From a virus: a DNA stretch of 64,000 nt. Position numbers and translations under genes: made by a program. This document shows positions 28,919 to 57,541 of the stretch, piece after piece. Each line of letters starts with the position of its first letter. Position 1 is the first letter of the stretch. The DNA lies in the IMG/VR virus record IMGVR_UViG_3300036944_000990, positions 62,001 through 126,000 of that record, one strand, 5' to 3'. The notes beneath the pieces were generated by a model. It was not told the origin of the DNA. It saw nothing but the letters and a program-made list of their open reading frames with translations, and did no database searches.

Positions 28919-29093
28919 CGATGCCTCCTTCACGCTGTCTGCTTTGATAAAAACGTTCACACTAAACCCCCAAAGAAAAGCTGTGCAGTCTCTATTAGAT
29001 ACCACACAACCGTTAAGTTTAACTGGTCAGCGAATGTCCATTAGGACCTCCAGTTTAAAAAAGAGGGTGGGGTGTCCCACCCTCTATGTCGTC

Positions 29094-30128
29094 TTACACC
29101 GCTGCTGCTGGGTACTTGATTGCCGGTTGTGGATGGTAGTCCACCACTTGAATATCGTCGATGGTGAAATCGAAGATGTCCTTCACTTCGGGGTTGAGGA
29201 CGATACGAGGTGTGTACGGACCTTCGGTTGGACGCGCCAGCTGTTGATTGGCGGTGGTCACTTGGTCTTCGTAAACGTGGCAATCGCCACCCACCCAGAC
29301 AAACTCACCCGTTTCCATGTTGGTGACATGGGCCAGCATTTGGATCAGAAGCGAGTACTGGACGATGTTGAAGGGGACTCCGATCGGTACATCAGCGCTG
29401 CGCTGATAAAGCAGACCAGACAACCGATGGGTTGCTACTTGTTCCAGAGGGATGTCCCGTTCTTCAGCAATCACCTTGCGTTCCGTCAACCCGAGTTTGT
29501 ACGGTTTGAGATGAAGGAGGGTGTGACAGGGCGGCAAAGCCATCTCGTCAATCTCCGCCACGTTCCATGCCGAGAGGATGATACGGCGATCGTCGGGGTT
29601 ATTCTTGAGCTTATCGACCAACATCTGGATTTGATCGTACTCCTTCTTCATGATGGCGTACGTCAGGTGGTCTTCAGGCTGATAGACTTCAGTCCAGAGC
29701 CGATACCCTTTGTCCCGGTAGTAATCGACCAGAGGACTGTCATTGTCCACCGTCTTGATCGATTCCCAACGCCGCCACTGATGTTGATAGATCTTCGGAA
29801 GTTCACCTGCGACGAGTACACCGTCCACGTATTCCTCGGTGCCCTTCTTGACCCAACTGTCCCAGATATTCACCCCGTGTTGCTTGAGGTAGCGGATGTT
29901 GGTATCGCCTGAGAGCATCCAGATCAACTCGTGGATGATACCTTTGGTGAAGACCTTCTTACTGTGAAGCAGGGGAACTTTACCTTCACTAATGTTAAAG
30001 CGCATCACGCGCCCAAACACACTATGGGTGTCGATTCCGGTACGGTTCTCGCAATGGATGCCGTTATCCAGAATGTCTTCCATCAGGGCGTGATACTGAC
30101 CGGTTGGGCTATTGTCGCGGTGAGGCAT
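29094..30128 (-). CDS. thyA: Thymidylate synthase (ThyA type)
   Basis: 344 residues. Converts dUMP to dTMP using methylene-tetrahydrofolate; the folate is recycled by the phage DHFR. Motifs: ENRTGIDTHSVFG near the start, FTKGIIHELIWMLSG, IYQHQWRRW (113-121), NPDDRRIILSAWN with the phosphate-binding RR (181-182), catalytic Cys201 in ALPPCHTLL, LYQRSADVPIGVPFNI, and HVYEDQ near the C-terminus. The protein is about 80 residues longer than E. coli ThyA, with inserts after QWRRW (about 122-165) and around 212-240. Start ATG 30128 has AAGGAA upstream. Confidence 0.95.
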   Translation of the reverse strand: MPHRDNSPTGQYHALMEDILDNGIHCENRTGIDTHSVFGRVMRFNISEGKVPLLHSKKVFTKGIIHELIWMLSGDTNIRYLKQHGVNIWDSWVKKGTEEYVDGVLVAGELPKIYQHQWRRWESIKTVDNDSPLVDYYRDKGYRLWTEVYQPEDHLTYAIMKKEYDQIQMLVDKLKNNPDDRRIILSAWNVAEIDEMALPPCHTLLHLKPYKLGLTERKVIAEERDIPLEQVATHRLSGLLYQRSADVPIGVPFNIVQYSLLIQMLAHVTNMETGEFVWVGGDCHVYEDQVTTANQQLARPTEGPYTPRIVLNPEVKDIFDFTIDDIQVVDYHPQPAIKYPAAAV

Positions 30129-30166
30129 GAGTCGTTCCTTATCAAGGAGGGTTAGCGTTTAGTTGA

Positions 30167-30352
30167 TCAAATGACAAAACTGCTAGCTTCGGCGAGTGCG
30201 GCGAGGATTAGTCGTCTTAAATCTCCATCGTTCTCCAAATTTAAAGTTTCAATCTCAAGTACTGGGCGGGGGATATACCGAAACTTGATCGTACGGGAGT
30301 TGAATTCATACCAACAACTTAAGTAATGTCCTCGTGGGGCATATATAGACAA
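30167..30352 (-). CDS. Possible small protein (61 aa)
   Basis: The frame opens with TTG at 30352 and lacks a clear ribosome-binding site; the codons look protein-like (MSIYAPRGHYLSCWYEF onward). It lies between two minus-strand genes and may be translated by coupling from the gene ending at 30376. A shorter or absent gene is possible. Confidence 0.35.
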   Translation of the reverse strand: MSIYAPRGHYLSCWYEFNSRTIKFRYIPRPVLEIETLNLENDGDLRRLILAALAEASSFVI

Positions 30353-30375
30353 CAGTCTGCGACAAAGGGTAGTGC

Positions 30376-54909: not shown

Positions 54910-56961
54910 ATGTCGCTGCCCGTACCTAGCGAGAATATTAAAGGCATTGAATGTAAACACGCGGTTTACACACTGCCGAATGACGATGGTGATGGGGATG
55001 CCCTGATCGTCAAAGAAGTCATTCACACCAAAGACGGTCAATTGATCCCGAACCTCAAGATCATCGAAAACTACAAGCGCGATTTTTTCTATGCGCGTGA
55101 AGGTCAACGTAACTATACAGAAAAGAAGACTCAAGAAAAAATTAATAACCTGCAACGTTACACCTGCACCCAACGTAACCTGCTCAGACAGATTGCGCGG
55201 GCTAAAGGGGTGGGTACTTTGCGTGGGGGTTTGCGTCAGATTGCACGCGACCCTTATTTGTACGGGTGTGACATCACCACACCCACGCTCCTTAAACGTG
55301 AATACCAACTGCGTTCTCCAGATTGCTTGTCCCCCAATGGCGTAGCGGTATTCGACATCGAGACGGATGTTGTCCACGGTACTGAACAACCCATCCTGAT
55401 GGCCTTGACGTTTAAGGACAAAGTCTACCTGGCTGCGACCAAGTTCTTTGTAGGTCAAGACGTTCGCTTCTTGGAAAAGCTTAACAAAGCCATTGAAAAG
55501 TACTTGGAGAAGTACACTAAAGAGCGCAACATTACCTACGAACTGGAGATCGTTGAGACACCCGGTGAAGGCATTCGGCGTTGCTTTGCCAAAGCCCACG
55601 AATGGAAACCTGAATTCGTCACCATCTGGAACATCGACTTCGATATCCCCAAATGCGTCAAGCAATTGGAAGCTGAAGGAATTGATCCAGCTCAAGTTTT
55701 CAGCGATCCATCGGTTCCCGAGCGCTATAAGTTCTTCCGCTACAAGCAGGGCAACGCTACTAAGAAAACCGCTTCGGGTCGAATCGATTCGATTCACCCA
55801 GCCGAACGGTGGCACGTAGCCGAATGTCCAGCGACGTTCTTTCTGATCGACAGCATGTGTGTGTACAAGCGTATTCGAATGGCTAAGCAAAACCTGCCTT
55901 CGTACAGCTTGGACTACGTAATGAAGGAGGAGTTGTCGGGGCTTGGTAAGCTTAAGTTCGAAGAGGCCGACGAATATGCAGGGTTGGCATGGCACGTGTT
56001 CATGCAGACCTATTACAAAGTCGAATATGCGGTCTACAACATCTTCGACTGTATCGGTGTAGAACTGTTGGATGAGAAGACCAAAGACTTGCAGCTGGTT
56101 ATCAGTACCCAGTCGCGGGCTTCGGAATACACCATCTACAATTCGCAACCTCGTCGTTTGGTGGATGACTTCTATTTCTTCTGTCGTGACCGAGGCTATA
56201 TCCTAGGTTCGTGTAGCAACGAAATGGTCCATGAATTGGACGCTTACGTTGTTGGCATGAATGGACACATCGTGACCTTACCCTCTCACCAGACAGTGGA
56301 TAACGGCGTCCGCGCTATTAAAGAACTGCCTGATGTAAGGACCTACATTCGTCGTCACGTAGCCGACTTGGATTAATTAAAAGTCCCTTCAGACTGGAAG
56401 GTCTGAATGTAAACTCTTCTAATTGCTGGAAACCCCTGAGAGCTGTTCCACCACTGCGAGGCGAAAGCCAAAGCCACGGTTTGAAAACGGAACGGATTGG
56501 GCAACCGTGGGTCCTAAGGACCCCTTTAGCAGCCAAGCTCCTCTATGCGAAAGCAGTGGAGAAGGTTCAACGACTATCCCGCAAGGGAGTAGGGACAAGC
56601 GTCCCGAAACGGAGAGCACCCGACCCACCGTATGGTGAAGGGTGATGATATAGTCTCGGCATGTGGGGAAAGCCCACAGCAGTGCTTGATCGCACGGGGT
56701 AAAGTGTTGCGACTTAACCCGAAGATACCGATTGTCAGCACGTACCCGAACGTTCAGGTGATCCTGAATATCTCGCGTGAGACCACGCTTTACGAACTGT
56801 ACAAGATCAAAGGGTGTAATGAATACCAAATGAGAATGGCTGGGTATAACCTGACAGGCGGTCACGTGAATGCGGTAGAAATTGCAGTCGACATCATGAA
56901 AGCCCCGAGCTTTGATCGGATGCTGGCAGAGTTCCTTATGGACCATCCAGACGCAGCATAA
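54910..56961 (+). CDS. Family B DNA polymerase, exonuclease plus motif A; join(54910..56373, 56731..56961)
   Basis: After removal of the intron the product is 564 residues. Exonuclease motifs: VFDIET (Asp149, Glu151), WNIDFD (Asn241, Asp245) and YNIFD (Tyr376, Asp380). Polymerase motif A is restored only by splicing: ADLD-IVSTYPN, with catalytic Asp488 directly before the splice. The C-terminus then stops near residue 564, with no motif B or C (YxDTD), so the rest of the catalytic core must be in another gene. Without splicing translation ends at the TAA right after Asp488. Function: replication and proofreading of the phage genome. ATG 54910; TTGGAG about ten bases before. Confidence 0.85.
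56374..56730 (+). ncRNA. Group I intron in polB
   Basis: 357 nt, no open frame, so no homing endonuclease. The 5' end TAATTAAAAGTCC resembles the start of the T4 td intron (TAATTGAGGCC); P1 pairs exon GGAT with intron GTCC (56383-56386), keeping the U-G pair at the splice site. Core pieces: TGCTGGAAACCCCTGAGAG, CAGCCAAGCTCC, and P7 from GACTA (56572-56576) with TAGTC (56651-56655), followed by TCGGCATG. It ends in G at 56730. The joined exons restore an intact motif A (D-IVSTYPN). Subgroup IA is likely. It should be self-splicing. Confidence 0.88.
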
Positions 56962-56972
56962 AAGGGTTGTAC

Positions 56973-57000
56973 GCTAGGCTCCCTAGGGAGCCTAGTGCTT
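56973..57000. terminator. Bidirectional terminator after polB
   Basis: CTAGGCTCCC-TA-GGGAGCCTAG (56974-56995), perfect 10-bp stem, then tgcttttatgccgc. It separates polB from the convergent nuclease gene. Confidence 0.8.
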
Positions 57001-57008
57001 TTATGCCG

Positions 57009-57464
57009 CTACTTCCCACACCAGTCGTACTTGGTACCGCCGTCATAGGCGACAGCATGTCCACGTTCAACCATGGCGGTTCCTACATTGATGTCGTCTA
57101 TGTAGACATCAGCCAAAAGACGGAAATACTTATCTCGGGCAAGGTTATGGAGTTCGATCTTCTGACCGCCTCTCAGTGCCCCTAATAGAAAATCTTTAGC
57201 CAAACCTGCTTTGTGACGCTCCGCTGCTCGCAGGACGTCGGTACTGCAACTGCTGCGAATCTCCGGGGTGTCTATCCCGTTGATCCTGACAGGTAACTCA
57301 TGACCAAAGACATCCAACATCCCAGGCAGTTGTACCTTAAAGGTATCGCCATCATAGACTTCGACTACATTAGCCGAAGGCATGCGGATCATGTCAGTGG
57401 CCCACAGTGGACTCGGGAGCAATAGCGCACACAAGAAAACTACCCGGATTAAAAGAGAACGCAT
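57009..57464 (-). CDS. Exported staphylococcal-nuclease-like protein
   Basis: The start MRSLLIRVVFLCALLLP at 57464 (GAGGTGGGG upstream) gives a Sec signal: basic start, hydrophobic core, then PLWA as a likely cleavage end (about residue 22). 151 residues total. SNase catalytic residues are present: VYDGDTFKV (Asp40), VRINGIDTPE (Arg60, Asp65, Glu68) and DKYFRLLADVY (Arg115). SNases cut single- and double-stranded DNA/RNA with calcium. Export means it works in the periplasm or the medium. A phage with a periplasmic nuclease could block a second phage or scavenge host DNA. Confidence 0.85.
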   Translation of the reverse strand: MRSLLIRVVFLCALLLPSPLWATDMIRMPSANVVEVYDGDTFKVQLPGMLDVFGHELPVRINGIDTPEIRSSCSTDVLRAAERHKAGLAKDFLLGALRGGQKIELHNLARDKYFRLLADVYIDDINVGTAMVERGHAVAYDGGTKYDWCGK

Positions 57465-57541
57465 ACCCCACCTCACCAAAAAAAAAAAGAAACAGTTAAG
57501 CCTTCGACACCCAGCCACAGAAGTGACTGGGCGCCTTGGGT

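Follow-up and report, generated by a model that had tools for sequence, protein, structure and literature searches.

A group I intron in motif A of a phiKZ-type DNA polymerase gene, and related introns at two neighbouring sites in jumbo phages

The window, the 64,000-nt stretch of DNA that was analysed, comprises bases 62001-126000 of a 131,545-base IMG/VR virus record. The record is probably an incomplete genome, and its source is a phiKZ-like (Chimalliviridae-type) jumbo phage. An open reading frame that begins at position 54910 of the window ends at a TAA at 56376. When 54910-56373 is joined to 56731-56961, a frame of 564 amino acids with no internal stop is obtained, and this spliced product has a full-length match to phrog_3011 (E 5.8e-204). 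A tblastn search with the polymerase returned 285 phage records, nearly all of them from jumbo phages. On these comparisons the interrupted gene is assigned to the phiKZ gp82 family, the predicted first subunit of a split family B DNA polymerase. The features of the locus are collected in Table 1.

Table 1 Features of the interrupted polymerase gene and its intron (window coordinates)
Feature	Position	Strand	Basis
Exon 1, codons 1-488	54910-56373	+	phrog_3011 match of spliced product; tblastn
GAT codon of Asp488 (motif A); U at -1 makes the U.G of P1	56371-56373	+	RB69 gp43 alignment; invariant in 33 relatives
Group I intron of 357 nt with subgroup IA features (P7.1, P7.2) and no ORF for an endonuclease	56374-56730	+	RF00028, helices, covariation, absence in L006/L007
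Internal guide sequence GUCC; its P1 partner is exon GGAU at 56370-56373	56383-56386	+	Fold
P2 hairpin, 7 bp	56388-56407	+	Double changes among relatives in 7 of 7 pairs
P3 5' strand (partner 56611-56616)	56414-56419	+	Double changes in 5 of 6 pairs
P4 5' strand (partner 56528-56532)	56423-56427	+	Fold and covariation
P6/P6a	56538-56561	+	Fold and covariation
P7 5' strand (partner 56651-56655), guanosine-binding helix	56572-56576	+	Invariant in 8 of 8 introns compared
P7.1 and P7.2 hairpins (56577-56588, 56592-56605)	56577-56605	+	Fold
P8	56617-56644	+	Fold and covariation
P9, P9.1, P9.2	56662-56720	+	Fold and covariation
Exon 2: codons 489-564 with the stop codon, from IVSTYP (motif A) to the C terminus	56731-56961	+	Homologous to L006/L007 and PhiPA3 exon 2
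Opening three codons of exon 2, ATT GTC AGC, synonymous against ATC GTA TCG in L006/L007	56731-56739	+	Probable co-conversion tract

Motif A was assigned by alignment with RB69 gp43, in which FDLTSLYP falls opposite LDIVSTYP with a weak score. Across 33 relatives, residues D486, D488, Y493 and P494 do not vary. These results bear out two statements of the initial annotation, that the insertion lies directly after the codon of the catalytic Asp488 and that it occupies the most conserved stretch of the gene. Its further statement, that the polymerase lacks its active site unless splicing occurs, stands in so far as motif A is interrupted, but not for a complete enzyme: the gene encodes one subunit of a split polymerase, and a pattern scan found no motif-C-like pattern in the window, so that the motif C which a one-chain family B polymerase has in the same chain was not found. 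As phiKZ has a split-subunit DNA polymerase (PMC5105663), the C terminus is reached only 76 residues past Asp488 and motif C is missing from the window, the protein may be read as a subunit that needs a partner. An AlphaFold model of the protein of an intronless relative (L006) was confident in its exonuclease part (mean pLDDT 82.6), and its best fold matches were RB69 gp43 (E 2.6e-14) and E. coli Pol II. In the segment 479-513 of the model, which includes motif A, almost every residue had a pLDDT below 50. This low-confidence region and the missing motif C would fit a subunit that needs a partner, without proving it.

Two features were seen directly downstream. Just past the polymerase stop (56970-57003) the inverted repeat GGCTCCCTAGGGAGCC is followed by TTTT, like an intrinsic terminator, and a Staphylococcal nuclease-like protein (PF00565) is encoded on the other strand (57009-57518, minus).

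A covariance-model search with Rfam gave a single match in the window: RF00028 (Intron_gpI), 61.1 bits against a cut-off of 50 bits, E 4.8e-13, at 56364-56679 of the plus strand and covering model positions 1-253 of 253. Exon 1 ends in GCC GAC TTG GAT, the intron opens with an in-frame TAA and has G at 56730 as its last base, and exon 2 opens with ATT GTC AGC ACG TAC CCG. Two IMG/VR phages, L006 and L007, have ~97% nucleotide identity with the window around the gene and 99% amino acid identity, and in both the gene is uninterrupted at 564 aa. The junction GAT/ATT is thus fixed by homology and not by the reading frame alone. The splice points 56373/56731 proposed in the initial annotation prove to be exact, its range of 56371-56733 taking in one flanking codon at either end of the intron.

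In the window copy of the intron P1, P2, P3, P4, P6, P7, P7.1, P7.2, P8, P9, P9.1 and P9.2 can all be drawn with zero broken pairs. P1 is formed by GGAU/GUCC with the expected U.G at the 5' splice site, and the P3-P9 core with P7 and the P3/P7 pseudoknot is present. The presence of P7.1 and P7.2 between P7 and P3' points to subgroup IA (td/nrdB type). When eight introns of the polymerase gene were compared, 34 pairs had changed on both sides. Shuffles gave 20.7, with no shuffle of 500 reaching the observed number, and controls with the partners slid gave no more than 16. The covariation score was 0.41 for the structure derived from the window and 0.15 or less with partners slid by 1-3 columns; the slid control somewhat favours the window structure, as the window is itself one row of the alignment, but the double changes are independent of that. 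The Rfam score together with covariation in eight related introns excludes a chance match, and the identification as a group I intron, made initially from the letters alone, is confirmed by the covariance model, the core helices and the covariation. Very probably, therefore, a functional, mobile-type group I intron lies between these splice sites. In kind it is ordinary, another phage group IA intron, and its splicing activity is inferred from sequence.

In the proposed splicing reaction the guide GUCC would pair with the GGAU of the Asp codon and so place the 5' splice site, guanosine would attack there, and the exons GAU and AUU would be joined, restoring DxDIVSTYP. The in-frame TAA at the first bases of the intron would halt ribosomes at the splice site, so that the unspliced message should give only a truncated product of 488 aa. 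All 11 introns examined have an in-frame stop no more than 24 nt from the 5' splice site (L117 was left out of the count because its contig ends at the site).

The initial annotation had suggested that the intron might be fixed. This is contradicted: the Asp488 site is empty in the close relatives L006 and L007 and in most of the family, with 30 distinct intronless DxD(I/V)VSTYP relatives against three intron-bearing ones. Among the phage matches inspected from the 285 tblastn records, PhiPA3 alone had an insertion at the Asp488 site. Its gene gp085 (NC_028999.1; L003:2992-4818) contains a group I intron of 344 nt at the identical point (RF00028, 71.7 bits). The annotated product of 608 aa ends at the TAA of this intron; the predicted splice junction is GAT followed by ATTGTAAGT, and the spliced product is probably one of 686 aa. 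In the open papers searched, a set outside which the PhiPA3 genome paper falls, no mention of the intron was found. The third occupied site is in an IMG/VR phage, L012, which has an intron after the Asp488 codon and a second at ~codon 453. Seven further IMG/VR relatives (L096, L102, L106, L111, L113, L114 and L115) have an intron that follows Asp486, 6 nt upstream. Motif A of the phiKZ-type polymerase is a hot spot where introns occupy two sites 6 nt apart, and some of the introns there are armed with HNH endonucleases while others have none.

Some other candidates were examined. The vB_PQ1 gene, which had appeared interrupted near residue 489, consists of several short reading frames and is read through at the site itself; a junction pattern scan of IMG/VR gave one match, L121, which is unrelated; and no match was found in plasmids. 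In L116 an insert of ~50 nt lies in the polymerase gene just ahead of the YP of motif A (L116:5640-5705), and a further Rfam group I intron match lies at the 3' end of the gene (L116:5879-6185).

The intron was then compared with known introns. That of PhiPA3 gp085 shares with it the gene family, the insertion point DLD/IVSTYP, the guide GUCC, the TAA at its start and the absence of an endonuclease ORF, but the two are ~69% identical over 154 nt only and the host proteins are ~44% identical. The introns at the Asp486 site are also group I, in the same gene and with similar cores; they differ in being inserted 6 nt upstream and, in L106 and L115, in carrying a phrog_59 HNH gene. PhiPA3 has another mobile intron, in the RNA polymerase beta-subunit gene gp210, and phiKZ has been shown to be a target of the HNH endonuclease that this intron encodes (PMC11620839). 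The gp210 intron resembles the window's intron as a group I intron that follows conserved Asp codons in an essential polymerase gene of a nucleus-forming phage, but the window's intron encodes no such enzyme. The closest stretch found was in the RNA polymerase intron of Pseudomonas phage PAP02 (93.6% identity over 94 nt, intron positions 38-131), which, unlike that of the window, is in another host gene and is followed by a phrog_314 homing endonuclease. The DNA polymerase introns of SPO1 and Bastille (PMC11878797) are likewise group I introns in a phage DNA polymerase gene, but belong to another phage group and are known there with HNH endonucleases.

A likeness to the T4 td intron in P1 and at the 5' end had also been proposed. 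The td and nrdB introns are of group IA and have the P1 U.G, but interrupt other host genes and carry I-TevI or a defective I-TevIII. Of the 5'-end likeness only TAATT and the U.G hold: over the first 30 nt the alignment is no better than shuffles (139 of 2000 as good), and a td origin of this end was rejected. The real similarity is in the catalytic core (81% identity over 43 nt with td, 76% over 55 nt with nrdB).

The exons flanking the site carry traces that bear on how the intron arrived. The D488 codon is GAT in all three intron-bearing genes and GAC in 27 of the 30 distinct intronless DxD(I/V)VSTYP relatives; GAT is explained by the U at -1 that P1 requires. All 30 intronless relatives have TCN as the Ser codon just past the site, where the window has AGC and PhiPA3 has AGT. 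A change from TCN to AGC or AGT needs two substitutions and so fits co-transfer from a common donor. By simple counting, uncorrected for relatedness, the chance of the GAT and AGY concentrations is ~0.004 and 0.006, respectively. A run of three codons all differing, as at the start of exon 2, has P ~1.5e-4 against L006 and 4e-4 against L007, while other runs of changed codons occur in the gene. Among near neighbours these changed codons are found in the window phage alone. The exon signature is not universal, as L012 has the intron yet a Ser codon TCA. L006 has GAT without an intron, which may point to intron loss. With moderate confidence, the changed exon 2 codons can be read as bases of a donor exon that arrived with the homing intron, apparently from a PhiPA3-like phage.

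The absence of the intron from close relatives, and an exon codon type common only to the window and PhiPA3, suggest that it homed recently into the window lineage, a reading to which we give a probability of roughly 0.65. Entry would have been at the DNA level, from an intron-bearing PhiPA3-like phage and together with a few donor exon bases.

Homing of this kind would need an endonuclease to make the break, and, in agreement with the initial annotation, none is encoded within the 357 nt of the intron. The enzyme may have acted in trans, from a co-infecting phage or from the unsequenced part of the genome, or may have been lost from the intron. T4-type phages provide known cases of introns that lack a working endonuclease and home in trans (PMC2988022, PMC3984707). 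The 131.5-kb record contains no HNH_3 match, and its GIY-YIG matches fall outside the intron. One is a free-standing ORF just past the window (L122:2261-3085, window coordinates 66261-67085), which adjoins an apparent RNA polymerase subunit gene and encodes an I-TevI DNA-binding domain as well as two GIY-YIG-like repeats. The intronless phage G001 has a 66% identical counterpart in the same place, its C-terminal end nearly unchanged, which makes this gene a weak candidate for the mobiliser. More attractive as putative mobilisers are the HNH enzymes of the Asp486-site introns, whose targets probably overlap the Asp488 site. The introns of L106 and L115 encode HNH_3/phrog_59 homing endonucleases, which implies that this region of the polymerase is under endonuclease attack in the family; the L116 intron near codon 453 gave a weaker HNH_3 match.

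Spread by reverse splicing would need no endonuclease at all: excised intron RNA, its guide reading GGAU, would insert at GGAU sites in its own or related transcripts and return to DNA by way of cDNA. The introns of the window and PhiPA3 and both introns of L012 follow GGAT and carry GUCC, and most exons at the Asp486 site also end in GGAT, although this sharing is partly forced, the protein fixing GAY, and the exons of L106 and L114 end in CTGAT. A P1 complementarity of 4-6 bp is what reverse splicing requires (review PMC3984707). The two L012 introns (L012:4369-5250), ~35 codons apart, have an overall identity of 79% and match without a difference over a long P7-P8 block, and their sites share only TGGAT/A; homologous homing cannot directly produce such a pair. 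Reverse splicing would, however, keep the exon bases of the recipient, and the first three codons of exon 2 are changed in the window, which argues for DNA-level transfer of this intron. We consider spread by reverse splicing unlikely, and likewise the wider proposal that one GUCC guide gave related introns three sites (~codon 453, after Asp486 and after Asp488), with the L012 pair made in this way. If it were true, the L012 pair would count as evidence from nature for RNA-guided reverse splicing in a protein-coding gene of a phage. That pathway has so far been supported mainly by rDNA introns.

The intron could instead be an old one, inherited vertically and lost from L006 and L007, either because it was precisely deleted or because these phages recombined with intronless ones. 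The GAT codon kept in L006 and the use of the Asp488 site in both PhiPA3 and L012 agree with this, but the 30 distinct intronless relatives against three intron-bearing ones would demand many precise losses, and among near neighbours the changed codons occur in the window alone; vertical inheritance is judged quite improbable. The modest Rfam score (61 bits), put down to extra sequence ahead of the P4 3' strand and an unusual P4/P5, might also be taken to mean that the intron has degenerated and lost its splicing, in which case the phage would make only the 488-aa protein or use another polymerase. This is very hard to reconcile with core helices that are intact without one broken pair, a P7 invariant in all the introns compared, and an open exon 2 that gives a spliced protein 99% identical to the intronless one. 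Recent homing at the DNA level is the preferred reading.

The overlooked PhiPA3 copy and the hot spot are of main interest here, and gene models such as that of PhiPA3 gp085 are corrected. PhiPA3 and phiKZ, with the intron present and absent, are a workable laboratory pair in which one could ask whether an intron that lacks an endonuclease is able to home, and whether introns of polymerase genes serve as weapons like that of gp210.

In a close relative, G002 (L125:1836-2941), the thymidylate synthase gene is itself interrupted by a group I intron, which comes with a GIY-YIG/NUMOD3 endonuclease. This intron has no blastn match to the window's intron and was rejected as its origin. The thymidylate synthase gene of the window (~29034-30364, minus strand) is uninterrupted, the reverse of the pattern in the polymerase gene when compared with G002.
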